Shown here: positions 3,561 through 37,694 of the stretch, in pieces
How the letters are laid out: each line of letters starts with the position of its first letter
Numbering within the stretch: position 1 is the first letter of the stretch
Assembly (NCBI GenBank): GCA_021781555.1
Contig: JAJXWQ010000033.1
Coordinates: 1 to 39,369, forward strand
DNA from: a bacterium
GTDB taxonomy: Bacteria > Cyanobacteriota > Sericytochromatia > S15B-MN24 > VGJW01
Direction of reading: 5' to 3'
DNA length: 39,369 nt
Notes under the pieces: generated by a model
Seen by the model: only the letters and a program-made list of their open reading frames with translations
Databases searched by the model: none
What the model was told of the DNA's origin: nothing
Translations under genes and position numbers: made by a program

Positions 3561-3675
3561 CGGGCCAGTAGATAAGGGGTTCCCTGGGTGAGGACGCCCA
3601 GGCGGACTGTCGGCCGGATTCGTGGCCAGACTGACCGCCCGGCGTGACCTTCCGTCGGAAGGATACGTTCCAGAG

Positions 3676-4668
3676 ATGCAACTGCGCTCGTTCCCGGTCG
3701 TGGCCCGGACGACTGAAGAATTGCGCCCTCCCCTGGCGCGGCGGACGCTCTCGCTGTGGCGCCTGATGCTCGCGCTCGGGCGGCCCTCGAGCTGGGTGCT
3801 GCCGATGATCGCCCTGGCCAGCGGCGCGCTCGCGTCGGGAGCCGTGACCCTGGACCGGGATCACGCGTTGCGCCTGGTCTGCGGATTGCTGCTGGCAGGC
3901 CCGTTGATGGGCGGAATGAACGCCGTGGTAAACGCCCTGTTCGACCGCGACATCGACGCCATCAACTGCCCCGATCGCCCTCTGCCTTCCGGCCAGATCT
4001 CGACCAACGCGGTCATCGCCCAGATGGGCTTGATGAGCCTGGCCATCCTCCTCTACGCCCATTTCCTCGAGGCGGGCCTCGGTACGCACCTGGATTCCCG
4101 GCTCGGGCTCGGGACCTCGAATGCCGGTGGCATCTTCCTCCTGGTCGCCCTCACCTTGGGCCTCATCTTCGCGGAGAACGCCCCGCCGCTCTCGCTGCGA
4201 CGCAACACCTGGCTGTCGGGCGTGTTCTTCGGAGTCATCGCCGTGCTGCTGCCGTGGCTCATGGGCAACCTCCTTTTCGGCCCGCTGACCCTGGCTTCAA
4301 CCCTTTACGGAGTGTCCTTCGGCCTGGGCGCCGTGGGCCTGCTGATCCTCCTGGCCCTGCGCAAGGTCGAAGGCGACCGCCGCGTGGGCGTCCGCTCCCT
4401 GTCTGCCTTGTTGGGCCCGGAGGTGGGAGTTGCGATCGGGGCGATCATGGTCGACACGGCATACCTGGCGGCAGGGATCCTGATGGCGGGCCAGCGCTGG
4501 GTCTCGGTTGCGGCCCTGGGTGTCCTGCTGGCCCTGCAGGTCGCGCTCCAGGTCTGGTTCCTGCGCCGCCGCGTGCCGCCGCGGTGGACCCTCGCCGCGG
4601 CCATCGCGCTGTTCGGCGCCGGGATGATCGTCTCGGCCGCGACCTTGATGTCGCGAACCTCCCTCTAG
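3676..4668 (+). CDS. ChlG/BchG-like UbiA prenyltransferase with altered Asp motifs
   Basis: The 330-residue polytopic membrane protein belongs to the UbiA superfamily and follows (bacterio)chlorophyll synthase closely: GPLMGG, then DRDIDAINCPDRPLPSGQIS, an APPLSLRRNTWL block, LPWLMGNLLFG, and KVEGDRRVGVRSL. Those enzymes attach a prenyl tail to chlorophyllide using prenyl diphosphate and Mg2+. The ND pairs that open both metal-binding motifs are altered here (Asn86-Ala87 and Leu226-Ala227), while the downstream Asp90, Asp92, Asp94, Glu232 and Asp234 remain. No other pigment gene is present, so the substrate may differ. I chose ATG 3676 because AAGGA lies upstream; GTG 3622 is possible. The stop codon is the CTAG end of repeat copy 4. 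Confidence 0.8.
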   Translation: MQLRSFPVVARTTEELRPPLARRTLSLWRLMLALGRPSSWVLPMIALASGALASGAVTLDRDHALRLVCGLLLAGPLMGGMNAVVNALFDRDIDAINCPDRPLPSGQISTNAVIAQMGLMSLAILLYAHFLEAGLGTHLDSRLGLGTSNAGGIFLLVALTLGLIFAENAPPLSLRRNTWLSGVFFGVIAVLLPWLMGNLLFGPLTLASTLYGVSFGLGAVGLLILLALRKVEGDRRVGVRSLSALLGPEVGVAIGAIMVDTAYLAAGILMAGQRWVSVAALGVLLALQVALQVWFLRRRVPPRWTLAAAIALFGAGMIVSAATLMSRTSL

Positions 4669-24079: not shown

Positions 24080-24234
24080 GCCCCCATCATAAACCAGGAG
24101 CGGAACCCTCGACTCCGGCCCCCGGCCTCTTCCATTCGCCCCGCACCGCCGCCTGGGCTTGCTCAGCATGGCGCTCCCGCAGCGGATCATGGGCCTGTAC
24201 AATGGGGGTTCTGCACGAGGGGACAAGATCAACC

Positions 24235-25536
24235 ATGGACAGCAAGCGTCTGCTGGTCGTCGCTTTTTCGCTCTTTTTGGTGATGGCGGGCTTCGGCATC
24301 ATCATCCCGGCCCTGCCTTACTACACCGAGCAGATCCAGGGATCCGCCACCGCCATCGGGTTCACGATCGGGGCCCTCATGGGTTCCTATTCGCTCGTGC
24401 AGTTCCTGTGCTCGCCCGCCTGGGGACACCTCTCCGACCGCATCGGGCGCAAACCCGTCTTCCTGTCTGGACTCGCCGGGTTTGCACTCTCGTTCACCTT
24501 GATGGGCAACGCCCAGCACATCGCCCACCTTCTTCACGCCAGCCCCCTGTTGGTGCTCTTTGCGGCTCGCTTGGTGGGCGGAATGCTGACCGCGGCCACG
24601 CTCCCGAGCGCATTCGCGATGGTCTCGGATCTGACCTCGGCCGAGAACCGCGGCAAGGGGATGGCGATGGCAGGGGCCATGATGGGCATGGGCTTCGTTT
24701 TTGGGCCGGCGATCGGCGGCATCCTGGCCGAGAACGGCAACTTCCAGCTGCCATTCTTCCTGGCAGCCGGAGCCGCGGCCGCGACCTTCCTGGTCGCTGC
24801 GGTCATCGTGCGCGAAACGCGTCCCGAGCGCTTGGCCGCCGAGAAGCGGGGCTTCTTTGCCGGCTTGGCCGTCGAGGGCGCCGGGCTCTGGCCCTGGCTG
24901 GTTCTGACCTTCCTCCAGTCGCTCGTCTTCGCCGGAATGGAGACCACGCTCGCACTTTATTATCGCGATGTCTTCTTCCCCGGTCTCAAGCCCGATGAAG
25001 TCGTCCGCCAGGTCGGCCTGTTGATGGGCATGGTTGGATTCGTCTCGGCGCTGTTCGCCGGTGGAGCCGTCGGTCGGCTGATCAAGCGCCTGGGCGAGGT
25101 GGCTGTCGCTCGCCTCGGGTTCGCTTTCTTCGCCATCGGCTTTTTCGGCCTGGCGCTCTCACCCTCGCCGACCACGCTCACGATCGCACTGATCGTCGTG
25201 GGCCTCGGGTCGGCATGTATGCGGCCCAGTCTCTCGGCTGGCGTCTCGCGTGCCGCCCGGACGGGTCAAGGCGTGGCGATGGGCCTACAGTCCAGCTTCG
25301 ACAGCCTGGCGCGGGTCTTCGGGCCGCTCCTGGCCGGCAGTCTCTACGTCGTCGGCGTCCACTTTCCTTACCTCGCCAGCAGCGTTCTCTCGGTGGGAGG
25401 CCTGGCGGTCGGCATCCTGGCCCTGATCAACACCCTGCCGACGGCCGCGGCTCCCACCGGCGACACCCCCGCTACGGCCGATCCGGCCGGCAGTCCCGTC
25501 TCATCCGCGCAACTCTCGCGCTCCTGGAGGCGATAA
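24235..25536 (+). CDS. MFS drug/metabolite exporter (DHA1, TetA-like)
   Basis: The 433-residue protein has the 12-helix MFS layout. Motif A is GHLSDRIGRKPVF between helices 2 and 3, and the helix 4-5 region reads RLVGGMLTAATLPSAFAMVS followed by GMAMAGAMMGMGFVFGPAIG (motif C), which marks proton antiporters that export drugs or small metabolites. The second half begins after LVLTFLQSLVFAGMETTLAL. The start at ATG 24235 gives the usual short N-terminus before helix 1. A hairpin separates it from the lipid kinase gene 43 bp downstream. The substrate is unknown; next to lipid genes it could export a lipid-like product. Confidence 0.88.
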   Translation: MDSKRLLVVAFSLFLVMAGFGIIIPALPYYTEQIQGSATAIGFTIGALMGSYSLVQFLCSPAWGHLSDRIGRKPVFLSGLAGFALSFTLMGNAQHIAHLLHASPLLVLFAARLVGGMLTAATLPSAFAMVSDLTSAENRGKGMAMAGAMMGMGFVFGPAIGGILAENGNFQLPFFLAAGAAAATFLVAAVIVRETRPERLAAEKRGFFAGLAVEGAGLWPWLVLTFLQSLVFAGMETTLALYYRDVFFPGLKPDEVVRQVGLLMGMVGFVSALFAGGAVGRLIKRLGEVAVARLGFAFFAIGFFGLALSPSPTTLTIALIVVGLGSACMRPSLSAGVSRAARTGQGVAMGLQSSFDSLARVFGPLLAGSLYVVGVHFPYLASSVLSVGGLAVGILALINTLPTAAAPTGDTPATADPAGSPVSSAQLSRSWRR

Positions 25537-25579: not shown

Positions 25580-26494
25580 ATGGCAGCGCGGAGGTTCCGG
25601 ATCATCGTCAACCGCAGCTCGCGACGCGGCGGGAAGGACCGGTTGCTCGACATCCTGCGCGCCGAGTTCGCAGGGGCGCAGGTCGACCTGTGCGTCCCGC
25701 AGACTTACGAGCAGACGGTCGCGGCCGCCGCCTCCGCAGCCGCGGATGGTATCACCGACCTGGTCATGGTGGGTGGTGACGGCACCCTCAACATCGCCGT
25801 CAACCAGATCGCCGGCACCGGGGTCAAGCTCGGCATCATTCCCACCGGGACGGCCAACGACCTGGCCACCCATCTCGGCATTCCACTCGACGTGCGAAAG
25901 GCCTGCCGAGTGATCAAGGCCGGCGGGAGCCGCAGGATCGACGTCGTCGATTGCAACGGCAAGTTCTTCGCCACTGCGGGGGGGATGGGCGTCGTCAGCT
26001 CGGTGGCCACCGGGGTCAATCGATTCAAGGCTTCGTCCGGCTACGCCCGCACGATCGCACGCATCTTTGGAAGCCTGGTCTATGTCCTCTACAGCTTCGT
26101 CCTGCTGGCGTTCGGCCGCGATCTCGAGCAACCCGTCGAGGTCAGCTGCGACGGCCGGACGATCGGCACGTTCCCATCCATCGCGCTCTTCATCTCCAAC
26201 CAGCCGACGATCGGCAAGACCGTGATGCCTTGCCCGCAGGCCCGTCCGGACGACGGCCAGCTCGCGGGCTTGGTCATGAGCGGGGGCAGCCGCCTGGCGA
26301 GCATCCTGACGGTCGTCTTGATGTCCCTGCGTGGCGCGCACCGCCACCGCCGGGATGTCCAGGGTTTCGATGCGCGCGAGATCGCCGTCCGCTCGACCGA
26401 AAGGCGCGTCTTCATCGGAGACGGCGAGGTCCTGGCGCACACCCGGACGCTTTGCTTCGCCGTCCACCCTGCAGCGCTGTCGGTCTGCGCCTGA
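25580..26494 (+). CDS. diacylglycerol/lipid kinase family protein
   Basis: The 304-residue protein has the DAGK catalytic fold: IIVNRSSRRGGK at the N-terminus, the nucleotide motif GGDGTLN near residue 66, and PTGTANDLATHLGIP near residue 92. The C-terminal beta domain ends with a FIGDGEVLAHT block equivalent to the D-G-E motif of YegS/DgkB. It should phosphorylate a lipid hydroxyl such as diacylglycerol or a sphingoid/undecaprenol-like alcohol, using ATP at the membrane. A strong ribosome site (AAGGAGCGAGGG) precedes ATG 25580. HMG-CoA reductase follows, consistent with a lipid-related block. Confidence 0.88.
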   Translation: MAARRFRIIVNRSSRRGGKDRLLDILRAEFAGAQVDLCVPQTYEQTVAAAASAAADGITDLVMVGGDGTLNIAVNQIAGTGVKLGIIPTGTANDLATHLGIPLDVRKACRVIKAGGSRRIDVVDCNGKFFATAGGMGVVSSVATGVNRFKASSGYARTIARIFGSLVYVLYSFVLLAFGRDLEQPVEVSCDGRTIGTFPSIALFISNQPTIGKTVMPCPQARPDDGQLAGLVMSGGSRLASILTVVLMSLRGAHRHRRDVQGFDAREIAVRSTERRVFIGDGEVLAHTRTLCFAVHPAALSVCA

Positions 26495-26636: not shown

Positions 26637-27869
26637 ATGAGTACCCCGCCACGCATCCACTCCGGCCATGTCCCGTTCCAGGGGCGCTACACCGCGGATG
26701 CCCTCGAAGGGCGAAGAGGCTGGGTGGCCGAGCAAACCGGAGCCGAGCTCTCGGCGCTGGCGGGCGCGCCTCCCCCCGCCAGCGCGGTGGAAGGCAACGT
26801 CGAGAACCATGTGGGCTACGTCCAGCTCCCGGTGGGAGCGGCCGGCCCCTTGCGAATCGACGGGGAGTTCGCGCAGGGAACCTTCTTCGTCCCGCTGGCG
26901 ACGACCGAGGGAGCGCTGGTGGCATCGGCATCCCGCGGCGCCCGGGCCATCACCGAATCCGGCGGGGTGCGCGTACGGGTGCTCAGCGACCAGATGATGC
27001 GCGCTCCGAGCTTCATCTTCCGATCGCTGGTCGACTCCGTGGCCTTTGCGAGCTGGGTACGCAAAGAGCAAGGCGCCATCCGGGCGATCGCCGAGTCACA
27101 GACCCGCCACGGCAAGCTCTTGTCGTGCGATCCCACGGTCCTGGGCGATACCGTCTGCCTCTTGATGTCGTACGACACCGGAGATGCCTACGGCGCCAAC
27201 ATGGTCATGCGGTGCAACTGGGCCGTCTGCAACTACATCGTTTCGACCTTTCCTGCCCAGTCCGGTCGGGAGATTCTCGACCACTACGTCGACTCCAACA
27301 TGGGCGCCGAAAAGAAGATCTCCTTCTTCATGTACACGACCTCCATGCGCGGCAAGCGCGTCGTGGCCGAGGCCAAGCTCGACCGGGGCGTGATGGCGAG
27401 CGTGCTCCGGACCACCCCGGAGGATCTCTTCGAGGCCTTCGTGGCGGGGATCACGCCGACGGCGGCGGCGGGCAGCATGGGAGTCAACGTCAACTTCGCA
27501 AACATCGTGGCCGCGATCTTCACCGCATGCGGACAGGACATCGCGACGGTGCCCGAAAGCGCGCAGGGCCAGCTCAACTTCCGGCTCGAACCTGACGGCC
27601 TCTACTTCGGGTGCCTCATGCCCAACCTCGTCGTCGGCACGGTGGGGGGCGGCACGGCCCTTCCAGCTCAGAGCGCCGCGCTCGACATGCTGGGTTGCAG
27701 GGGGACGGGCGGAGCGAAGAAGCTGGCCGAGATCGTCTGCGCCACCTGCCTTGCGCTCGACCTCTCGACCTTCTCGGCCATCTGCTCGGACCACTTCGTT
27801 CGCGCCCACGAGAAGCTCGGCCGCAACCGCCCCAAGACCGGGCCGCTCGGACTCCCCCCCCAGCTTTGA
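26637..27869 (+). CDS. hydroxymethylglutaryl-CoA reductase (class-I-like)
   Basis: The 410-residue protein is a full HMG-CoA reductase: ENHVGYVQLPVGAAGPL, catalytic Glu91 in TTEGALVAS, Asp183 in DAYGANMV (usually DAMGMNMV), the Lys226-Lys227 pair in EKKISF, GRGK-like RGKRVVAEA, GTVGGGT, and catalytic His391 in RAHEKLGRNRP. It reduces HMG-CoA to mevalonate, committing carbon to isoprenoids by the mevalonate route. The DAYGANMV variant and an insertion-free length suggest an unusual subfamily. No other mevalonate gene is in the window. It lies upstream of the UbiA-like/dikinase operon but is separated by a hairpin, so supply of isoprenoid precursor to that pathway is an inference. Confidence 0.9.
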   Translation: MSTPPRIHSGHVPFQGRYTADALEGRRGWVAEQTGAELSALAGAPPPASAVEGNVENHVGYVQLPVGAAGPLRIDGEFAQGTFFVPLATTEGALVASASRGARAITESGGVRVRVLSDQMMRAPSFIFRSLVDSVAFASWVRKEQGAIRAIAESQTRHGKLLSCDPTVLGDTVCLLMSYDTGDAYGANMVMRCNWAVCNYIVSTFPAQSGREILDHYVDSNMGAEKKISFFMYTTSMRGKRVVAEAKLDRGVMASVLRTTPEDLFEAFVAGITPTAAAGSMGVNVNFANIVAAIFTACGQDIATVPESAQGQLNFRLEPDGLYFGCLMPNLVVGTVGGGTALPAQSAALDMLGCRGTGGAKKLAEIVCATCLALDLSTFSAICSDHFVRAHEKLGRNRPKTGPLGLPPQL

Positions 27870-27879
27870 CCATGCTGTC

Positions 27880-27911
27880 GACCCCCTGCCTTTCCGGAAA
27901 GGCAGGGGGTC
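27880..27911. terminator. perfect palindrome terminator after HMG-CoA reductase
   Basis: GACCCCCTGCCTTTCC (27880-27895) directly followed by its exact complement (27896-27911), a 32-bp perfect palindrome starting 10 bp after the stop codon. There is no T run, but the stem is very strong. Confidence 0.72.
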
Positions 27912-28201
27912 CATAGTAGCGCCGTGGCACGAAGCCTGTCCGGGACTTCGCGCCGGGTGTGCCCCTTCTTGAGAGGTGTCCGCGGGGTGCGCCTCCCGAA
28001 GACACCTTCAGCTTACCGCGTCATCGTGGTCCCCCCAGCAGGCCCCATCACAGCTGGCCCGTGAGCTTCGTCACATGCCTTCGCTTCCCCGCAAGAACCC
28101 GAGCCAGGGGGCTTGCCACCCCTTTTCGAAGGCGGCAACCGTCAGGCGGGGTATATTGCGCCGGTGATGCCGGAAGTGGCCGGCAGCGGAGGAGTCGAAC
28201 C
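27912..28201. other. 290-bp gene-free stretch before the UbiA/dikinase operon
   Basis: No protein gene is convincing. It has an AGGTGTC/GACACCT hairpin (about 27974-28008), a GGGG/CCCC hairpin followed by TTTT (about 28107-28126), and TATATT (28152-28157) that could be the -10 box of the operon. No clear -35. Confidence 0.4.
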
Positions 28202-29146
28202 GTGGCCTCGAGTGCCGTGCGCATGCCCTTCTGGTCCCGCTGGAACAGCTACCAGGCGGAGCGCTTCCCGCTGGCTTCGCATACGGTGGCGATCGCCTTG
28301 CTGTTCGGCAGCACCTGGTTCGCGGCGCAGGCCCTCACCTCCACGGGCCGGCTGCAGATCGGCCCACGCGGGCTGGCGGCGTTTGCAGCCACCTTCCTCA
28401 CGCTGCTCCTCTTGCGGGTCTTCGACGAGTTCAAGGATTTCGATGACGACCGCATCAACCATCCCGACCGCGTGGTCCAGCGGGGTGTCGTCACCCTGGG
28501 CGAGCTGCGCGGGCTGGGCTGGATCGTCGTCGCCGTGCTGGCCACGCTGGCGGCGATCCTCGGGGTCGGGCCGGCGATCGCCTTCGGGGCGGTCTTCGGG
28601 TTTGCCCTGTTGATGCGGGTCGAGTTCTTCGTTCGGGACTGGCTGCGGGGCCACGTCTTCACCTACGCCCTCACCCACCAGGGCATCACGCCCCTGATCT
28701 GCCTGTACATCGGCACGGTATCGCTGGGTAGCTGGACGGCCCTACCCCGGGGCTTTCTGGCGGTTCTCGGGGCAGCAACCGGCGTCGGCCTGTGCTTCGA
28801 GCTGTCGCGCAAGTTCCTGGCCCCCGAGGACGAGAAGCCGACCCTCGATACCTACACGCGCAGGTTTGGCCCCCGAGGCGCTTCCTGGGTGGGCTTCGCC
28901 ACTCTGGTGGTAGCTGCCGGGTGTTCCGCGTGGCTCGTCCACACGCTGGCCTTGCCTGGCTGGGTCGGCGGTCTCATCGGCCTGGCGACGATCGTAGGAG
29001 CGGCGGGCTACGCCAGGTATGCAGCCAGCCCCACGGCCCGCAACGCCAGGGGGGTCAAGGATCTGGGCACGCTCGCCGTCGTGCTGCTGGAACTATTCCT
29101 GGTCGTCGGGATGGTCGCCGCCCGCGGCGTGACGTGGGGCAACTGA
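28202..29146 (+). CDS. UbiA family prenyltransferase-like membrane protein
   Basis: The 314-residue protein has about eight membrane helices and UbiA-type acidic motifs. The first is RVFDEFKDFDDDRINHPDR, followed by VVQRGVVTL, matching the DExKDxxxDRxxHPxRxxxRG form of a bacterial UbiA branch. The second region is ELSRKFLAPEDE, then DTYTRRFG. It should transfer a prenyl group from a diphosphate donor to an unknown acceptor in the membrane. GTG 28202 is preceded by GGAGGAG at 7 nt, which decides the start; the open frame extends upstream without coding character. Its stop is 2 bp before the dikinase ATG, so it is the first gene of a tight operon. Confidence 0.78.
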   Translation: MASSAVRMPFWSRWNSYQAERFPLASHTVAIALLFGSTWFAAQALTSTGRLQIGPRGLAAFAATFLTLLLLRVFDEFKDFDDDRINHPDRVVQRGVVTLGELRGLGWIVVAVLATLAAILGVGPAIAFGAVFGFALLMRVEFFVRDWLRGHVFTYALTHQGITPLICLYIGTVSLGSWTALPRGFLAVLGAATGVGLCFELSRKFLAPEDEKPTLDTYTRRFGPRGASWVGFATLVVAAGCSAWLVHTLALPGWVGGLIGLATIVGAAGYARYAASPTARNARGVKDLGTLAVVLLELFLVVGMVAARGVTWGN

Positions 29147-29148
29147 GG

Positions 29149-31896
29149 ATGGATGCTGCGATGACGTCGCTACCACAGACGAGCGGACTGGTCGTGTTTC
29201 CCGGCGAAGTCGCACCTTCGCAGACCCGCGAGCTGGGCGGGAAGGCTACCAATCTCTGGCGCCTGGTCCAGGCGGGGTTCGACGTGCCGACCTGGTTTGC
29301 GGTCGGCGCCGCGGCGCACCGGTTGGCTCGCCCGGCCCTCGCGGACGGCCAAGGAATTCCACCGGTGGTTCGTGAGGCCGTGCTGGAGGCCTTCGAACGG
29401 ATCTTTCGGCGCGACGGCCATTACGTACCGGTCGCGGTGCGCTCCTCGGCCATCGGGGAGGACGGCACGACCACCTCTTTTGCCGGCCAGCTGAAGACCT
29501 ACCTGTACGTGGCCGGTCCCGAGGCCTTCCTCGAGGCCCTGGCCGGATGCTGGGCCTCTGCGGATGCGTCCGGGATCGCCGCCTATCGCCAGGCACACGA
29601 GATCGCCTCTGCGGCGATCGACATGGCCGTCGTCGTCCAGGAGATGGTCGACTCGGAAGTCAGCGGCGTGGCCTTCACGGCCAATCCGATCACCGGAGAT
29701 CGCAGCGAGGTCGTCGTCCGGGCCGCCTTCGGGCTCGGCGAGGGGGTGGTAGCCGACCTGGTAGAGACCGACGGCTACGTGATCCGGGTGCCGGGGCAGG
29801 ACCAGGCCACCGAGTTCGCTGCGGAGATCGCCCACAAGACCGAGCGGGTCGCCCGGGCGGACCGCGGCGGGACCCGCGTCGTACCCGTCGAGGCCGACCT
29901 CCGGGACCGGTCCTGCCTCGCGGACGGCCAGGTGCGGGAGCTGGCCCGGACGGCCCGGGCGATCGAGGCCGCGTTCGGCTCGCCGCAGGATATCGAGTGG
30001 GCCTATGCCGGGGGTCGCCTGCACGTGTTGCAGGCCCGGCCGATCACCGTGCTGGGCGCCCAGACGGGTGGCCTTGCCGGGAGCTCAGAGCGACCGGAGG
30101 CCTCCCTTGCGAGCGGCGCTCTGCGCCAGATCGTCTGGGACAACTCCAACATCATCGAATCGTACTCGGGCGTCACCAGCGCGCTGACCTTCAGCTTCGC
30201 CCAGAACGCCTACGAAATCGTGTACCGACAGGTCTGTGAGCTGCTGGGCGTCTCACCGCGGGTCCTGGTCGCCAGCACGGCCGTGTTCCGCAACATGCTC
30301 GGCCTGATGAAGGGCCGCGTGTACTACAACCTGCAGAACTGGTACAAGGTCGTCTCGTTGCTCCCCGGATTCGAGGCCAACCGCGCCTTCATGGAGCAGA
30401 TGATGGGCGTCAAGGACTCGGTAGCGTCGACCCGCGCTCAGACCCGGGCTGGCTTCGTCGACCGGATCGGCCCGCTGCTCCATGTCGGGCTGCGCGTGAT
30501 CACCAACTTCCTCACGCTCGATCGTCAGGTCGCGGGGTTCATGCAGTCCTTCGAAGCGACCTATCAGGCCCAGAGCCGGCAAGACCTCTCCCGGATGAGC
30601 CCGCACGAAATCGTCGAGATGTACGACCTGCTCGAAAAGGACGTGCTGCGCAACTGGAAGGCCCCGATCCTGACCGACATCGCCGCGATGGTCTTCTACG
30701 GGGTCCTGCGCAAGCTGGTGGGGGCCTGGTGCCCCGAAGCGGGCGACAGCCTGCAGAACGATCTGCTGTGCGGCGAGGGTGGCATCGAGTCGACCGAGCC
30801 CACCAAAGCCCTGCTGCGGATGGCGATCTCCATCAAGGCGGACCCCGCGCTCGAGGCCGAGTTCCAGTCCCTGCCGCCCCCGGAGGCCGACCGCTGGCTA
30901 CGGGGCGACCTGGAGGCCCGGGGCAGCAAGGCCATGCTGGCTGCGGCCATGCGGGAGTTTCTCGATCGATTCGGATTCCGGTGCATGAACGAGCTCAAGC
31001 TCGAAGAGCCGAGCCTGCGCGACGATCCGACCTTCGCCTACGTGACGATCTCGAACTACCTGCGGCAGGGCGAACTCGATATCGCGGCCATCGAGGCCGC
31101 CGAACGGCGGATTCGCCAGGACGCCGAGCGGCGAGCCGCCGGGGCCCTGCGCGGCCATCCGATCCGGCACCAGGTCTTCGCCTGGGTGCTCGCCAACGCC
31201 CGCAAGGCGGTCAAGAACCGAGAGAACCTGCGTTTCGCCAGGACCAAGATCTTCGGCCTCTGCCGCGAGATGTTCAACGCCCTCGGTGCGAAGCTGGCCG
31301 CGGCCGGACAGCTTCGCACCGCCCGGGATATCTACCACCTGACCGTGCCCGAGATCATCGGCTTCGTCGAGGGCCGCTCGACCTGCACGAACCTCCGGGC
31401 CCTGGCCGAGCTTCGCAGCGCGGAGTTCGACCGCTACCGGGGCGAGGACATTCCCGATCGGTTCACCACGACGGGCATCCCGTACCTCGACCTGCCCCAG
31501 GAGCCAGCCCCGGCCGGGCCCGGAGAAGATTCCGGGGTGCTGTCGGGGACGAGTTGCTGCCCGGGCCGGGTGAAGAAGGCCGTACGGGTCATTCTCTCGC
31601 CGCGGGACGACATGCGCCTTGATGGCCAGATCCTCGTCGCGGAGCGCACGGACCCAGGCTGGGTTCCGCTCTATCCCTCGGCAGCCGGGCTTCTCATCGA
31701 GCGGGGTAGTATCCTGTCGCACTCGGCGATCGTGGCGCGGGAACTGGGTATACCCGCCATCGTCGGCATCAAGGGGCTCACACGTAGGGTTCATGATGGC
31801 CAGGTCGTCGACATGGACGCGCGGGCCGGGAAGGTCTACCTCGAGGCTCCGGCCCCTGACTCCGCCCCGCTGCGTGACGCGGCTTGGCAAGGATAG
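29149..31896 (+). CDS. PEP-synthase/rifampin-phosphotransferase-like dikinase
   Basis: The 915-residue protein has three parts. Residues about 20-305 are the ATP-grasp PPDK N-domain: GGKATNLWRLVQAGFDVP, VAVRSSAIGEDG, VVQEMVDSEVSGVAFTANP and LHVLQARPIT. Residues about 325-800 are a long helical domain beginning WDNSNIIESYSGVTSALTFS. Residues about 825-910 are the swivelling phosphohistidine domain, with the likely catalytic His858 in SILSHSAIVARELGIPAIVG. This order matches rifampin phosphotransferases more than PEP synthase, which ends in a PEP-binding barrel that is absent here. It probably splits ATP to AMP, phosphorylates His858 and passes the phosphate to an unknown acceptor bound by the middle domain. 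ATG 29161 is an alternative start. Confidence 0.82.
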   Translation: MDAAMTSLPQTSGLVVFPGEVAPSQTRELGGKATNLWRLVQAGFDVPTWFAVGAAAHRLARPALADGQGIPPVVREAVLEAFERIFRRDGHYVPVAVRSSAIGEDGTTTSFAGQLKTYLYVAGPEAFLEALAGCWASADASGIAAYRQAHEIASAAIDMAVVVQEMVDSEVSGVAFTANPITGDRSEVVVRAAFGLGEGVVADLVETDGYVIRVPGQDQATEFAAEIAHKTERVARADRGGTRVVPVEADLRDRSCLADGQVRELARTARAIEAAFGSPQDIEWAYAGGRLHVLQARPITVLGAQTGGLAGSSERPEASLASGALRQIVWDNSNIIESYSGVTSALTFSFAQNAYEIVYRQVCELLGVSPRVLVASTAVFRNMLGLMKGRVYYNLQNWYKVVSLLPGFEANRAFMEQMMGVKDSVASTRAQTRAGFVDRIGPLLHVGLRVITNFLTLDRQVAGFMQSFEATYQAQSRQDLSRMSPHEIVEMYDLLEKDVLRNWKAPILTDIAAMVFYGVLRKLVGAWCPEAGDSLQNDLLCGEGGIESTEPTKALLRMAISIKADPALEAEFQSLPPPEADRWLRGDLEARGSKAMLAAAMREFLDRFGFRCMNELKLEEPSLRDDPTFAYVTISNYLRQGELDIAAIEAAERRIRQDAERRAAGALRGHPIRHQVFAWVLANARKAVKNRENLRFARTKIFGLCREMFNALGAKLAAAGQLRTARDIYHLTVPEIIGFVEGRSTCTNLRALAELRSAEFDRYRGEDIPDRFTTTGIPYLDLPQEPAPAGPGEDSGVLSGTSCCPGRVKKAVRVILSPRDDMRLDGQILVAERTDPGWVPLYPSAAGLLIERGSILSHSAIVARELGIPAIVGIKGLTRRVHDGQVVDMDARAGKVYLEAPAPDSAPLRDAAWQG

Positions 31897-31940
31897 GTCG
31901 GTTGGCACGCGAGCTTGTCAGCAGCGATGCCCGAGGCATC

Positions 31941-33008
31941 ATGTCATTTTTTGGCGATGGCCCGGCTAGCAAGGATTTCGTGGAGTTGCCTTACCGCATC
32001 CACGCCCGGGATCTGCACTGGATTCCCCCGTTTCGGCGCTCCGTGCGAGGCCAGCTGGCGCCCTCCTACCCGTGGTACCGCGCGGGGGTGGCGCGGCACT
32101 TCCTGCTCCCGGGGCGAGGCCGGCTCTCGGCCTTCTGGCTCCCCGAGACGGACGTGGGGTACCTCGGCTCGTTCGAATGCAGCGCGGACCAGACCCTGGC
32201 CAGCGCCCTGCTCGACGCGGGCGCGAGGTGGCTCCGCGAGCGGGGAGTCGCTCACATTCGCGGCCCCGTGACCTTCGACACCTGGCATCCGTATCGCTTC
32301 GTGGTGGAGGGCCACGATCGCCCGCCCTTCCTCCTGGAACCCTACAATCCGCCCTACTATCCCTCGCTCTGGGAAGGGTACGGGTTCCGGCCGGTAGCCA
32401 GCTACGTGTCGATGGAGGCCGGCGATCTGGCCGGCGTGATCGAGCGCCTCGAGCCGTTCCATCGGCGCGCCCTGCGCTCGGGATTCACCTTCCGTAAACT
32501 CGACCTGGCGCGCTTCGACGCCGAACTCGCGCTCATGCATACGCTGAGCCAGGCAAGCTTCGCCGAGGCACAGGGTTTCCATCCGATCTCGCTCGATGGC
32601 TTCCGACGGATCTTCGCGAGCGCTCGCAAGCTGGGTTCCGAGCTCACCGTCATCGCCGAACACCAGGACGGCAGACCCGCGGGCTTTCTGTTCGGCTACC
32701 CGGACCTTTCGGACGCCGTCCGGGCCATGCGCGGGAGCGAGAGCCTGGTGGCAAAGGCTCGCTTTGCCCTTGCCCGGCGGCGCCCGCGGGCCGCGGTGTT
32801 GAAGACGCTGGTCGTGATGCCCTGGGCCCGGGGAACCAGCGTCGGGATGGCGCTGGTTGCAAACCACCTCGGCCTGGCCCACGCGGCCGGGTACGAGACC
32901 TCCATCCACGCACTCATGGCCGAGGAAAATCCGTCGACGCACCTGAGCGCATTCACCGGAGCCAGGCAGCTTCGCCGCTACGCGCTCTACGAGCTCCCTG
33001 GAACATGA
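31941..33008 (+). CDS. GNAT-like acyltransferase
   Basis: The 355-residue protein begins with the signature of a large bacterial GNAT-like family: FVELPYRIHARDLHWIPPFR. A first degenerate acyltransferase half follows (WLRERGVAHIRGPVTFDTWH) and then a second half (LKTLVVMPWARGTSVGMALV, and ALMAEENPSTHLS), where the Val-x-Pro strand and Gly-rich turn resemble the acyl-CoA pyrophosphate loop. It is predicted to transfer an acyl group from acyl-CoA to an amine or hydroxyl; the acceptor is unknown. ATG 31941 has CGAGG just upstream; TTG 31902 with AAGGATAGG is possible. Its stop overlaps the ATG of the ligase gene (ATGA), showing translational coupling. Confidence 0.75.
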   Translation: MSFFGDGPASKDFVELPYRIHARDLHWIPPFRRSVRGQLAPSYPWYRAGVARHFLLPGRGRLSAFWLPETDVGYLGSFECSADQTLASALLDAGARWLRERGVAHIRGPVTFDTWHPYRFVVEGHDRPPFLLEPYNPPYYPSLWEGYGFRPVASYVSMEAGDLAGVIERLEPFHRRALRSGFTFRKLDLARFDAELALMHTLSQASFAEAQGFHPISLDGFRRIFASARKLGSELTVIAEHQDGRPAGFLFGYPDLSDAVRAMRGSESLVAKARFALARRRPRAAVLKTLVVMPWARGTSVGMALVANHLGLAHAAGYETSIHALMAEENPSTHLSAFTGARQLRRYALYELPGT

Positions 33009-34627
33009 TTTCGGAACCATCGCAGCGAGCGACCTCGCACAACCTCATTCATTACCTCGATCGCTGGGCCATCGAGGCCCCCGAGCGTCCCGCGATCGTC
33101 ACGCCGGTGGACCTGGCAGCCAGCTCCCATCGCGTCGTCCGATTCCAGGAGCTGGCGACCGAGGTCGGGTCCCTGGCCGCGGGCCTCCGACGCAGGGGTC
33201 TCCGGCCAGGCGATCGCGTGGTCGTGATGGTACCGATGAGCGCCGAGCTCTACACGCTGATCCTGGCGCTGCTCAAGATCGGCGCGATCACGGTCTTCGT
33301 GGACCCCTGGGTGGGGCTGGCACGCCTTTTGAGCTGCATCCGCCTGGTCGAGCCGGCGGCCTTCGCCGGCCCCTGGATCGTGCAGGCGCTGGCGTCCGGG
33401 TTTGCCGAATTTCGTGGCATCAAGACGCGTCTGATCTCGAGCAAGCGGGGCTGGGGACGACTGGTGGATCCCGGGCAGGCGAACCGACCTGAGATCCCGG
33501 AGACGAGCCCGGTGTCGCCAGACGATACCGCCCTCATCACCTTCACCACCGGCAGTTCGGGCGCCCCCAAGGGGGCCGATCGCACCCACGGATTTCTCGA
33601 CGCCCAGCACCAGGCGCTGTGTGCCGAGATGAAGATCCAGGCCGGCGACGTCGCGATGCCGGCCCTGCCCATCTTCATCCTGAGTAACCTCGCGGCCGGC
33701 GCCACGAGCGTGATCCCGGCCATGCGGCCCAGCCGCCCGTCGGCCGTGGACCCCGATGCGATCCTGCGCCAGATCCGGGCCTTCGGCGTCACCTCTCTGG
33801 TCGGTTCCCCGGCCTTCTTTGCTCCCGTGTGCCGGAGGCTCAGGGAAGAGCAGAGCGTACTGGCGGGGGTCCGGAGCGTTTTCACCGGCGGAGCGGCCGT
33901 CCCGCCAGACCTCATGCGGGATCTGGCCGACCTGCTGCCGGACGGAGATGCATTCATCGGCTACGGCTCGACGGAGGCGGAGCCCGTCGCCCTGATCTCG
34001 GCGCGCGAGGTGCTCGCCGAGACCGGAGCGCGGACGGCTCGAGGCGAAGGCGATTGCGTGGGTCGACCGGCGCATGGGATCGAGCTGAAGATCCTTCGGG
34101 CCAGCGCCGGGCCCGTGGTCGATCCCGACTGGGCCCAGCTCGAGCTACCGGCCGGCCAGATCGGCGAGGTGGTGGTCTCCGGGCGTCAGGTCAATCGCAA
34201 CTACTTCCGCAACGAGGAGGCCGTGAGGCTGAACAAGATCCGCGAGCCGAGCGGCCAGATCTGGCACCGGATGGGCGATCTGGGGTACCGCGACGAACGC
34301 GGGCGGTTGTGGATCGTGGGCCGGATGCACAATTGCGTGAACCGGTCGGGAACCGTCCTCTATCCGGGAATCGTGGAGGCCCTGGCCCAGGCCGAGCCCT
34401 GGGTCGAGCGGGCTGCGCTGGTTGGACTGCCCGACCGCGAACTTGGCCAGCGAGCGGTCGTTGCGGTGGTACCCGCAGCGGCCCCCCGGATCGAAACCCT
34501 GCGGACCAAACTTGCCGACCACGGCATCTTGGTCGATGAGGTGATCCTGCAAAGGCGCATCCCGGTCGACCCCAGGCACAACGCGAAGGTCGACTACGAT
34601 CGGCTCGCTCGCTCCCTGTCACGGTAG
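33005..34627 (+). CDS. OleC-like AMP-dependent fatty acid ligase
   Basis: The 540-residue protein is an ANL-superfamily adenylate-forming enzyme. The P-loop is TFTTGSSGAPKGADRTHGFL, A5 is YGSTEAEP, A7 is GDLGYRDERGRLW, and the A10 lysine is in RIPVDPRHNAKVDY. The block LPIFILSNLAAGATSVIP, then RPSAVDP and GVTSLVGSPAF, is characteristic of the OleC/fatty-acid-ligase branch, whose best-known member turns beta-hydroxy acids into beta-lactones. No OleA, OleB or OleD is next to it, so simple acyl-adenylate or acyl-CoA formation is equally possible. The start codon overlaps the preceding stop (ATGA). An SRPBCC gene follows after 21 bp. Confidence 0.83.
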   Translation: MISEPSQRATSHNLIHYLDRWAIEAPERPAIVTPVDLAASSHRVVRFQELATEVGSLAAGLRRRGLRPGDRVVVMVPMSAELYTLILALLKIGAITVFVDPWVGLARLLSCIRLVEPAAFAGPWIVQALASGFAEFRGIKTRLISSKRGWGRLVDPGQANRPEIPETSPVSPDDTALITFTTGSSGAPKGADRTHGFLDAQHQALCAEMKIQAGDVAMPALPIFILSNLAAGATSVIPAMRPSRPSAVDPDAILRQIRAFGVTSLVGSPAFFAPVCRRLREEQSVLAGVRSVFTGGAAVPPDLMRDLADLLPDGDAFIGYGSTEAEPVALISAREVLAETGARTARGEGDCVGRPAHGIELKILRASAGPVVDPDWAQLELPAGQIGEVVVSGRQVNRNYFRNEEAVRLNKIREPSGQIWHRMGDLGYRDERGRLWIVGRMHNCVNRSGTVLYPGIVEALAQAEPWVERAALVGLPDRELGQRAVVAVVPAAAPRIETLRTKLADHGILVDEVILQRRIPVDPRHNAKVDYDRLARSLSR

Positions 34628-34648
34628 CCTGGACTACAAGGAGGCCCG

Positions 34649-35257
34649 ATGGGCATCTACTGGCGATGGCTCCAGGCCGCGGCGATCATCGTGCTGTTCG
34701 TGCCGGCGGTCTTCCTGGCGATCGGGTTCCTGGGGCCGGAAACGATCGTCAGCCAGGTCCAGCGGAGGGTGGCGGCTCCCCCGGCGCGGGTCTGGGCGAT
34801 CGCGACGGACTGGCGCACGATCACCGCCCGTGGTGGCGCCGGGTCCGGCCTACCGGTCTTCCTGAGCCGGACGGTGGTCGGGGGCGGAGACCCGGTGGCC
34901 GGCAAGGTTCTGCGATATTCCCTGGGGCCCGACCAGGCCTGGAATCAGAAGCTCACGGAGTGGGAACCCGATCGTCGCTATGCCTTCCGAAACGCCGCGG
35001 CTGGCCACCAGGCTCCCCTGCCGGGAAACGTGGCGATGGCGTTCACCTTCAGGCCCACTGCGACAGACTCGACCGAGGTCGGCTTCACGATCACGGTGAC
35101 CAGCCATGGTGCCATCAACAAGGCGCTCGCCCTGGTCCTGGGTGACGGTCTGGGCACGCTGCGAGGCTATCAAGCACTGATCTTGCGCGAGATCGCCTCG
35201 GCGTCGGTTCGCGCCGGGGGGCCTCCCGCCAAGGCTGCCGTCGCCGCAGCCCGCTAG
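34649..35257 (+). CDS. membrane-anchored SRPBCC (START-like) protein
   Basis: The 202-residue protein has one N-terminal membrane helix (LQAAAIIVLFVPAVFLAIGF), then an SRPBCC/polyketide-cyclase-like domain beginning VQRRVAAPPARVWAIATDWR and continuing through LTEWEPDRRYAFRN and STEVGFTITVTSHG. Such domains enclose hydrophobic ligands such as lipids or polyketides, so it may bind or carry the product or intermediate of the upstream enzymes. A perfect AAGGAGG precedes ATG 34649. The TAG stop is the left CTAG of repeat copy 9, shared with the convergent acyl-CoA dehydrogenase's end on the other side. Confidence 0.75.
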   Translation: MGIYWRWLQAAAIIVLFVPAVFLAIGFLGPETIVSQVQRRVAAPPARVWAIATDWRTITARGGAGSGLPVFLSRTVVGGGDPVAGKVLRYSLGPDQAWNQKLTEWEPDRRYAFRNAAAGHQAPLPGNVAMAFTFRPTATDSTEVGFTITVTSHGAINKALALVLGDGLGTLRGYQALILREIASASVRAGGPPAKAAVAAAR

Positions 35258-35309
35258 CGTGCGCCCGGAACGAGTCAAACGGGACCCGTTCACCCGGCCA
35301 AAGACCTAG
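35254..35309 (+). repeat. CTAG element copy 9 (56-bp mini form)
   Basis: Both ends are retained: CTAG (35254-35257) then CGTGCGCCCGG, and AAAGACCTAG with CTAG at 35306-35309. Between them are GAGTCAAACGGG and ACCCGTTCA, so the central stem is kept while the left GTTTGAA region and the core hairpin are deleted. The left CTAG is the stop of the SRPBCC gene (plus strand) and the right CTAG is the stop of the acyl-CoA dehydrogenase gene (minus strand). The element therefore is the entire intergenic space. Confidence 0.82.
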
Positions 35310-36973
35310 CGCCGGATCGCCTGTGGCCTTGCGAGCAGCCCCATGGCCGTCCAGCCCTCCAGGTGCGCATCGACCAGGCGGCGAGCGTGCGCCACCAGGC
35401 TCTCGCGATCCGGATCCATCGCCAGCCCGGCCTCGCCGAGCAAGAGGCAGGCCTCCAGCGCCGGGGCCAGTTTGAAGACCCACTGGCGCGCTGGCACCGT
35501 CCAGTCGTCGCCCTCCAGACCCCGCAGGCCCGCCAGTGCGGACTCGAGCTCGTCGGTGTGCTCGGCCAGGCGCTCGCCCAGGTAGCGATCCGGAGAACGG
35601 GAGAGATTGGCGCGCATGAGGTCGAAGAGCGGCTCGTGGGCGGACTCCTTTTCCACGGCACGGAAGGTGTCCAGAACCAGGATGTTGGTCGTGCCCTCCC
35701 AGATGGGCAAGACCTGCGCATCGCGATAGAAGCAGGAAAGGCGAAAGTCCTCGACATAGCCGTTGCCGCCGAGCATCTCGATGGCCTCGGACGCGCTCCA
35801 GATCGCCCGCTTGGCCGTGAAGAGCTTGAGGACCGGAGTGAGGATCCGTAGCAACGCCCGCTCGGTAGCGTCGTTTGCACCTTCCTCGATGCGCTCGAAT
35901 CGCCCCACGACCTCGAACGCCAGCGCCTGGGCACCGTCAAGCTCGGCGGCCAGAGCGTCGAGCGTGTCGGCGACCATCGGGTACCGGGCGATCGTGCGGC
36001 CAAACGCCTGGCGACCCTCGGCCCAGGCCAGGGCCTCTGCAAAGGCCCGGCTCATGATCGCGACAGCGGCCAATCCGTTGTAAAGGCGCGAAAGGTTGAC
36101 CATGTGGGCCATCTGCTTCCAGCCAGCATCCAGCTGGCCGACCAGGAAGCCCTTGGCCCCCGCAAGCTCGATCTCACCGGTAGCCAGCGATCGGGTTCCG
36201 AGCTTGTCCTTGAGGCGGCGTATCTGGAAGGTGTTGCGGCCATGGTCCGGCAGCGTCCGCGGCACCGCAAAGAGGCCGAGCCCACGCGTCCCTGACCGTG
36301 CCCCATCCGGCCGCGCCAGGACCAGCGCGAGGTCACCGCCCGCGTTGGATGCGAACCATTTCTCCCCATGCAGGCGCCAGGCATCGCCGTCGCGCTGCGC
36401 CCGGGAGTCGATCGCGCCGACGTCCGATCCGCCCTGCCGCTCGGTCAGGAACATCATGGCCGTGTACCGGCCCGAACCCCGCGCCCCCAGGCGCGGGAGG
36501 TAGCGGTCCCGCAGGACCCCATCGCCGTAAGCCGCCAGGACCTGGCCAGCGCCGTCCGTCATGGCCAGGGGGCAGAGCACCCCCTGCTCGTAACGGCCAA
36601 AGGCCAGGCTTCCGGCGGCCGAGATGGTACGGGCGTGGCCGCCCCAGCGCCTGCGCTCTGGAGGATCGTAAAGCATGGAAACGATCCCAAAACGCCCGTA
36701 TGCGAAATCCTCGAGCTGTTGGTAGGAAGGGTGATGGATGACGTCGTGGAGCGGCTCACCGAAACGATCGTGCGTCCGTAGCGTGGGCGGATGGGCGTTG
36801 GCCTCGAAGGACAGAGCGTCGAGCTCGGCCCCCGCCTGATCGATCTCGCCAAGGAAGGCCTGGGCCTGGCGCGCCGACTCCCTGGGCAAGCGCCGCGACA
36901 GGCGGGCGGCAAGAAAGGGATCCCTCGAAATCGCCGGCATGGAACCCATCGGTATAGCAGGCATATGGTCCAT
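35306..36973 (-). CDS. AidB-type acyl-CoA dehydrogenase
   Basis: The 555-residue flavoprotein is of the longer AidB/isovaleryl-CoA dehydrogenase branch: an N-terminal LHDVIHHPSYQQL block, MMFLTERQGGSDVGA (flavin and substrate loop), LGTRSLATGEIEL, EMLGGNGYVEDFRL and IWEGTTNILVLD near the active site. It would dehydrogenate an acyl-CoA at alpha-beta using FAD, or act like AidB in alkylation stress; the branch does not decide. The start is uncertain: ATG 36973 has GGGAG 9 nt upstream that belongs to repeat copy 10; ATGs at 36964, 36949 and 36940 are alternatives. Its stop is the right CTAG of copy 9. Longer frames reaching into copy 10 are artefacts. Confidence 0.87.
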   Translation of the reverse strand: MDHMPAIPMGSMPAISRDPFLAARLSRRLPRESARQAQAFLGEIDQAGAELDALSFEANAHPPTLRTHDRFGEPLHDVIHHPSYQQLEDFAYGRFGIVSMLYDPPERRRWGGHARTISAAGSLAFGRYEQGVLCPLAMTDGAGQVLAAYGDGVLRDRYLPRLGARGSGRYTAMMFLTERQGGSDVGAIDSRAQRDGDAWRLHGEKWFASNAGGDLALVLARPDGARSGTRGLGLFAVPRTLPDHGRNTFQIRRLKDKLGTRSLATGEIELAGAKGFLVGQLDAGWKQMAHMVNLSRLYNGLAAVAIMSRAFAEALAWAEGRQAFGRTIARYPMVADTLDALAAELDGAQALAFEVVGRFERIEEGANDATERALLRILTPVLKLFTAKRAIWSASEAIEMLGGNGYVEDFRLSCFYRDAQVLPIWEGTTNILVLDTFRAVEKESAHEPLFDLMRANLSRSPDRYLGERLAEHTDELESALAGLRGLEGDDWTVPARQWVFKLAPALEACLLLGEAGLAMDPDRESLVAHARRLVDAHLEGWTAMGLLARPQAIRR

Positions 36974-36974
36974 A

Positions 36975-37081
36975 CTAGAGTGCTCCCGGTTTGAATGGAT
37001 CGAGCCCGATGAGTCAAACGGGGCCCGGTTGCGCAGCGAAGCGACCGGCAGAGGGCCCCGTTCAAACTGCAAAAGGCCTAG
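36975..37081 (+). repeat. CTAG element copy 10 (full length, 107 bp)
   Basis: CTAG (36975-36978), AGTGCTCCCG, GTTTGAATGG, ATCG-AGCC-CGAT, the stem, the core, TTCAAAC, TGCAAAAGGC, CTAG (37078-37081). It differs from copy 8 by a one-base deletion after the core. It lies directly upstream of the minus-strand acyl-CoA dehydrogenase start, to which it contributes the Shine-Dalgarno-like GGGAG. Confidence 0.92.
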
Positions 37082-37148: not shown

Positions 37149-37526
37149 TCAGAGGGGGATCGGCGTCCCCTTTTCGTCCACCGCGACGAACACGCTCTCG
37201 GCGGTCGTGACGACGGCGACCTCACGCGGATCATGCTGGCGCTGGGCCTCGACGCGGATCTGGACGGTGATGCTGGTGCGCCCCCGCTTGATGGTCTGGG
37301 AGTAGAAGCTGACGATATCGCCGACGTAGACGGGCCGCTTGAACACGACCTCACGCATCGCAACCGTCACGAACCGGTGGTCGGTATTCTTGCGAGCTTC
37401 CACCGCTCCCGCCAGATCGATGTAGGACAGGATCACGCCGCCGAAGATGGTGCCGTTCTCGTTGGTGTCCTTGGGAAGCAAGAGAACGCGGATGGCGGGT
37501 TCACCCCGAAAGGTGGCGTCTGGCAT
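37149..37526 (-). CDS. YciA-like acyl-CoA thioesterase (hotdog fold)
   Basis: The 125-residue protein carries the acyl-CoA thioesterase signature [20 protein letters not shown], then IDLAGAVEA, with the catalytic Asp/Asn pair of the YciA family. The strand [20 protein letters not shown] follows, and the tail ends [11 protein letters not shown]. It hydrolyses acyl-CoA to free acid and CoA in the cytoplasm, usually as a hexamer of hotdog folds. AGGA stands upstream of ATG 37526; a start at 37586 would add 20 unconserved residues. Same direction as the acyl-CoA dehydrogenase gene but separated by repeat copy 10. Confidence 0.9.
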
Positions 37527-37694
37527 GAAAGGTCCTGATGCAGGTAAAGAGAGGGGTTCGACGAGAAGAGTAGCAGCTTCGATCAACTTTTTAAAGGTCC
37601 TTTGGCAAGGATTTAATCGACACTTACGATAAGCGTATCAGGCAGGCGCCTGTTTTGATAATTCTGGCGACTCGGCCTCCTCCTGGCCAAGCGC

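Follow-up and report, generated by a model that had tools for sequence, protein, structure and literature searches.

HMG-CoA reductase (HMGR), a target of cholesterol drugs, is taken as a sign of the mevalonate pathway. In its class I form, K735 makes a salt bridge to the terminal carboxylate of HMG and S684 is a further HMG contact (PMC9500038). Rifampin phosphotransferases (RPHs) are often misannotated as phosphoenolpyruvate (PEP) synthases; their catalytic histidine domain is C-terminal, and transfer proceeds via R666, E667 and K670 (PMC4844700). Among UbiA enzymes, DGGGP synthase serves archaeal ether-lipid synthesis, and the ligase OleC belongs to the OleABCD pathway to long-chain olefins. 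Proteins of the DUF3419/BtaA family transfer an aminocarboxypropyl group from SAM toward betaine lipids, a synthesis described for BtaA together with BtaB. In algae, DUF3419 has been linked to synthesis of the betaine lipid DGTS (PMC6642084). Neighbourhoods of UbiA and of HMGR are mentioned in the Lipocone paper, with partners that differ from those described here. Relatives of all these enzymes meet in the locus analyzed below, for which the original prediction knew of no characterised pathway; our search likewise found no published description of the gene combination in the literature covered, which left preprints and most subscription journals outside. Here we describe a gene set conserved across two phyla and a proposed change of substrate in its HMGR, both of which we hold to be likely.

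The window, that is, the whole stretch of 39,369 nucleotides that was analyzed, corresponds to contig C33 in a genome of 3.8 Mb (G000). Its relevant features are as follows.

24232-25536, + strand: MFS exporter (open reading frame open from 23980, start probably near 24232)
25580-26494, + strand: YegS/DAGK-type lipid kinase (DAGK_cat above the Pfam cut-off)
26637-27869, + strand: class I-like HMG-CoA-reductase-family enzyme, HMGR (HMG-CoA_red above the Pfam cut-off)
27880-27911, between HMGR and UbiA: perfect 32-bp palindrome, a strong hairpin with no T-run
28202-29146, + strand: UbiA-like protein, 314 aa (GTG start, GGAGGAG at 28188-28194)
29149-31896, + strand: RPH-architecture phosphotransferase ('dikinase'), 915 aa (PPDK_N and PEP-utilizers above the Pfam cut-offs)
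31941-33008, + strand: GNAT, a tandem-GNAT-fold acyltransferase by predicted structure
33005-34627, + strand: acyl-AMP/acyl-CoA ligase, PRK09274/OleC-like (AMP-binding above the Pfam cut-off)
34649-35257, + strand: SRPBCC protein of lipid-binding type with an N-terminal hydrophobic segment (Polyketide_cyc2 above the Pfam cut-off)

The five genes from UbiA to SRPBCC had been predicted to run on one strand with gaps of 2, 44, -4 and 21 bp, which matches the open reading frame coordinates throughout, and the HMGR, lipid kinase and MFS exporter placed upstream of them are present on the same strand. HMGR and UbiA are 332 bp apart, and the palindrome in this interval lies 10 bp past the HMGR stop (folding z = -4.9); HMGR may therefore be transcribed separately in the window's genome. 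Downstream of the operon, the opposite strand carries an AidB-like acyl-CoA dehydrogenase (35306-37072, -) and a small thioesterase-like open reading frame (37149-37586, -), a counterpart of which, with 64% identity, also follows the cluster in another genome (G003). The window holds a further UbiA protein at 3658-4668 (+), whose closest models are those of (bacterio)chlorophyll synthase, with sub-cut-off scores of 182 bits for PRK07566 and 162 bits for BchG, in a genome that is likely non-photosynthetic.

Recurrence of the gene set was assessed in 292 genomes of the window's phylum, which include a family (f9) with genome sizes of 1.8-2.3 Mb alongside larger genomes in the cyanobacterial size range, and in 395 genomes of a second phylum, that of a 'Bacteroidia bacterium' MAG (G292). 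Within the window's phylum, at thresholds of at least 700 bits for the dikinase and E <= 1e-15 for the UbiA family, the two families occupy an identical set of genomes (20/292) and are adjacent in 18 of the 20 carriers; in the other two (G004, G022) the genes lie on contig ends. The naive hypergeometric value for this co-occurrence, 2e-31, ignores shared ancestry and is a rough guide only. One of the two exceptions, a genome of cyanobacterial size, has HMGR and UbiA close together on a 5.4-kb contig (G022:C7, L159) and the dikinase at the start of another. Eleven of the 395 second-phylum genomes carry the dikinase, mostly within one cluster of HMGR, UbiA, dikinase, DUF3419 (BtaA-like), a CTP-kinase-like protein, GNAT and acyl-AMP ligase. 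UbiA, DUF3419 and GNAT stand beside the dikinase in 10 of these 11 carriers and the CTP-kinase-like gene in 9 of 11, while ligase and HMGR accompany it in 8 of 11, with HMGR adjoining UbiA in 8 of 11. Many of the second-phylum cluster genes have overlapping ends; the G292 cluster is split over two contigs.

Gene order differs among the cluster genomes. The SRPBCC gene, for instance, lies between GNAT and ligase in G356 and G450 and after the ligase in G003, the exporter is of MFS type in the window and often of MMPL type elsewhere, and a YegS/DAGK-type lipid kinase is a frequent cluster neighbour in the window's class. DUF3419 tracks the dikinase closely, being present in 14 of 15 dikinase genomes; the 59 genomes searched hold it in just one more case, as a divergent copy in G008. 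Most ligase relatives in other phyla (L003-L011, L013-L016, L019) are without cluster partners on the stretches examined, so the ligase alone is no cluster marker.

The arrangement is conserved across two phyla and is not due to chance. Two outcomes would have counted against the original prediction, a co-occurrence limited to one genome and ligase and dikinase homologues always found with unrelated partners; instead, the set recurs across two phyla and the dikinase keeps its UbiA partner. By comparison across genomes, UbiA and the RPH-like kinase are an obligate pair, in one gene set with GNAT, AMP ligase, DUF3419, the CTP-kinase-like protein and the HMGR-family reductase. The HMGR, which the original prediction had mentioned as an upstream neighbour, is by the same token a core member of this wider cluster, since it recurs in the second-phylum clusters. 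The variable gene order and the hairpin-bearing gap between HMGR and UbiA in the window might point to unrelated lipid genes that lie loosely together and share no pathway, but this is very improbable against the identical presence and absence of UbiA and dikinase and the overlapping genes of one set in two phyla.

The presence of HMGR would ordinarily imply mevalonate synthesis, and an isoprenoid ether-lipid pathway, in which HMGR supplies mevalonate and UbiA moves geranylgeranyl-type chains to glycerol phosphate as a bacterial analogue of archaeal lipids, would account for its family membership, for the best fold match of the UbiA-like protein (DGGGP synthase) and for the mevalonate-pathway genes in the window's genome. 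We nevertheless consider it unlikely. Of the 23 cluster genomes tested, 15 have DXR (MEP pathway) while mevalonate-diphosphate decarboxylase (TIGR01240) is effectively absent, so that mevalonate would lead nowhere in them, and all HMGRs found in these 15 are of the cluster type. The decarboxylase exceeds the TIGR01240 cut-off in G000, G001, G006, G007, G009 and G010 and falls just below it in G356 and G450; such decarboxylase-bearing cluster genomes have a second HMGR remote from the cluster type (G007 has only the remote one), and the remote HMGRs exceeded the class II model TIGR00532 in 3/3 tested. The window's genome itself encodes its class II HMGR apart from the cluster, at C87:55924 on a different contig, where a GHMP kinase and then the decarboxylase (C87:58250) come next. 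The same region (G000:C87:53000-59200) also holds an apparent type 2 IPP isomerase. PF08540 detected no HMG-CoA synthase in any of the 23 genomes, not even in those with other mevalonate genes, which makes its absence weak evidence, and TIGR00748 gave sub-cut-off matches only, similar to those in control genomes.

The residues point the same way. In an alignment of 17 cluster-type HMGRs, 12 of them from clusters and 5 unlinked, with the human (1dq8) and archaeal (6hr7) class I references, which share their fold family, the catalytic residues E559, K691, D767 and H866 are kept in 17/17. The HMG contacts R590 and K692 are also retained in all 17, a point against a changed substrate. By contrast, position 684 is D/E and position 735 is A/S/M/T/V in 17/17, where both references have S and K, respectively, so that the S684 and K735 contacts to HMG are lost. 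An acidic residue at 684 and the lack of a lysine at 735 should disfavour HMG-CoA. The TIGR00533 cut-off of 441.8 bits is likewise reached neither by the window's HMGR (313) nor by four others (337-352). In two clusters from which HMGR is missing (G432, G648), a NAD_binding_4 reductase is found. NAD_binding_4 is the family of fatty acyl-CoA reductases, and its presence in place of HMGR points to acyl-thioester reduction. The f9 clusters and the G003 cluster have neither HMGR nor a FAR-type gene within the cluster, so reduction is either not universal or done elsewhere. The split between DXR and the decarboxylase, together with the residue changes, led us to reject the cluster HMGR as a probable isoprenoid supplier; prenylation without mevalonate from this enzyme is possible. 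From its sequence and its hosts, the cluster HMGR has probably been repurposed away from mevalonate. The HMGR tree suggests transfer of HMGR between phyla: it joins two genomes of cyanobacterial size, G022 and G024, to G499/G550/G562/G570 of the second phylum (support 100/98) and separates them from relatives of the window. Given the long branches of the tree, this is a lead only.

The dikinase shares the domain order of RPH, with PPDK_N (ATP-grasp) at 69-306, an acceptor domain and a C-terminal phosphohistidine domain (PEP-utilizers, 825-894 of 915 aa) in which H858 corresponds to RPH H825. Its R691/E692/R695, invariant in the family, align with RPH R666/E667/K670. The nearest solved relatives (PDB 5fbs, 5hv1-5hv3) were deposited as 'phosphoenolpyruvate synthase' and are rifampin phosphotransferase structures. 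The protein nonetheless differs from RPH in scoring far under the cut-off of the RPH model NF041857 (304.5 bits against 999) and in its lipid-synthesis gene context. PEP synthase does not fit either: the score against TIGR01418 is 261 bits for a cut-off of 740, no PEP-binding domain match was found in the dikinase and the histidine domain is C-terminal, not central. A very near relative is described by NF004881 (PRK06241.2-2), itself named 'phosphoenolpyruvate synthase', which matches residues 73-898 with 845.9 bits, short of its cut-off of 883. Because of the RPH domain order and transfer residues, the dikinase should phosphorylate an acceptor other than pyruvate.

RedH and PigC are ligases that share this architecture, and their models outscore RPH against the dikinase (383 and 336 bits, respectively, compared with 304); by this analogy the dikinase might ligate rather than phosphorylate. 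The cluster would then encode a secondary metabolite, with a PigC/RedH-type ligase condensing a reductase-made aldehyde with another unit to yield a small natural product bearing a prenyl group. Natural-product pathways do include thioester reductases and AMP ligases, and exporters are present, but the RPH transfer residues are kept as R/E/R, the clusters read showed no carrier protein, PKS or NRPS, and both head-group modules described below (DUF3419 or PssA/PSD/CTP_transf_1) are membrane-lipid types, which leaves the secondary metabolite improbable.

For the UbiA-like protein there is no Pfam match, and NCBIfam prenyltransferase matches are weak. Its AlphaFold model (pLDDT 90) nevertheless has best PDB matches to 7bpu/6m31/4od4 (E about 1e-5, probability 1.0), led by the archaeal DGGGP synthase 7bpu at a TM of 0.64 and also including UbiA, so the modelled protein has the UbiA fold. 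It has the first Asp-rich motif in common with DGGGP synthase, as D-E-x-K-D-x-x-x-D, invariant in the family, but the second is replaced by ExxRKxxxPxxE. Aligning this second motif by way of the window's ChlG-like protein reached a probability of just 45% and was set aside. It further differs from DGGGP synthase in its bacterial HMGR-like, kinase and acyltransferase partners. As the second motif is non-canonical, a diphosphate donor is unproven. The chain moved could be alkyl as well as prenyl. The GNAT, also without a Pfam match, has a model (pLDDT 86.5) that matches tandem GNATs and FemX/MprF-type folds.

The ligase resembles OleC and PRK09274, reaching 455 bits for a PRK09274 cut-off of 478, and its C-terminal Lys528 is nearly invariant. 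It falls far below the cut-offs of the OleC models NF045786 and NF045785, with 325 bits against 900 and 252 against 850. OleC of an olefin pathway was rejected for this ligase on these model scores. Neither the window, as had been noted, nor the clusters read showed a recognisable OleA, OleB or OleD next to the ligase; since the ligase is PRK09274-like and fails the OleC models, their absence is no anomaly.

Head-group enzymes vary between clusters. The window operon is without DUF3419 and the CTP-kinase-like gene, both recurrent cluster members elsewhere, where the relatives' cluster genes are above the PF11899 (BtaA/DUF3419) cut-off. The sole DUF3419 found in the window's genome is a distant paralog (L134, C91:124-3592) beside an MMPL exporter, which forms a separate deep clade with copies from G001 and G005, the latter genome having the cluster type as well. 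A second version of the cluster (G002:C66, L126; G004:C340, L128) keeps UbiA, dikinase and GNAT, has no DUF3419 and adds PS decarboxylase (PSD) with either CTP_transf_1 or a CDP-alcohol phosphatidyltransferase (PssA). The genomes with this version (L126, L128 and L129 in G002, G004 and G005) also hold the DUF3419 version, and PS decarboxylase and DUF3419 occur together in the G432 and G648 clusters. That head-group enzymes swap around a constant core suggests that UbiA and the kinase make the lipid backbone. Betaine-lipid synthesis by BtaA/BtaB is a partial likeness: BtaA-family genes are present in the relatives' clusters, but these have extra chain-building genes and no BtaB was noticed alongside.

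The same swap bears on phosphorus-free aminolipid remodelling, in which the product would be an N-acylated homoserine (BtaA-type) lipid and UbiA and the kinase would only recycle carrier lipid. The tracking of the cluster by DUF3419, its tie to DGTS in algae and the presence of GNAT and acyl ligase are in its favour; however, the obligate pair is UbiA plus dikinase and not DUF3419, the PssA/PSD-type versions keep this pair without DUF3419, and the window operon has none, making such remodelling rather unlikely.

We favour a membrane-lipid assembly pathway in which an acyl group would be reduced to an alcohol, phosphorylated, coupled by UbiA and given a head group. Support is good for the gene set and for the argument on HMGR, while the chemistry and the order of steps are what we infer, and the chemistry as a whole is put forward tentatively, with somewhat less than even confidence. 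The ligase would activate a carboxylic acid to acyl-AMP/acyl-CoA, and the HMGR-family enzyme (NAD_binding_4/FAR-type in some clusters) would reduce the acyl thioester to an alcohol, HMG-CoA not being its substrate. The RPH-like enzyme would phosphorylate this alcohol via phosphohistidine, and either the CTP-kinase-like protein or some other kinase would supply a second phosphate. The UbiA-like enzyme would move the alkyl or polyprenyl chain to a glycerol-type acceptor to give an ether lipid in the manner of archaeal DGGGP synthase, a step proposed because the DGGGP-synthase-like fold and alcohol-forming-type reductases are both present. DUF3419 would add a 3-amino-3-carboxypropyl head group from SAM; in other versions CDP-alcohol phosphatidyltransferase and PS decarboxylase would yield a PS/PE-type head. 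GNAT would add an acyl group, and the SRPBCC protein and MFS/MMPL exporters would bind and export the product. The original prediction of a prenylated, phosphorylated and acylated lipid fits the conserved set as far as phosphorylation and acylation go; 'prenyl' is unproven and could be alkyl. Doubtful, though possible, is the wider claim of a third ether-lipid route apart from the archaeal and plasmalogen routes, combining an HMGR-fold alcohol step, an RPH-fold kinase, a UbiA ether step and interchangeable BtaA- or PssA/PSD-type heads.

The cluster marks out a testable lipid pathway that recurs in the window's lineage, in a few cyanobacterial-size genomes and in Bacteroidota, and the two head-group modules within it allow direct comparison. 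With an HMGR clade placed within a lipid cluster, in genomes that lack the rest of the mevalonate pathway, annotations in two phyla are probably incorrect, and the HMGR fold can probably serve another substrate.
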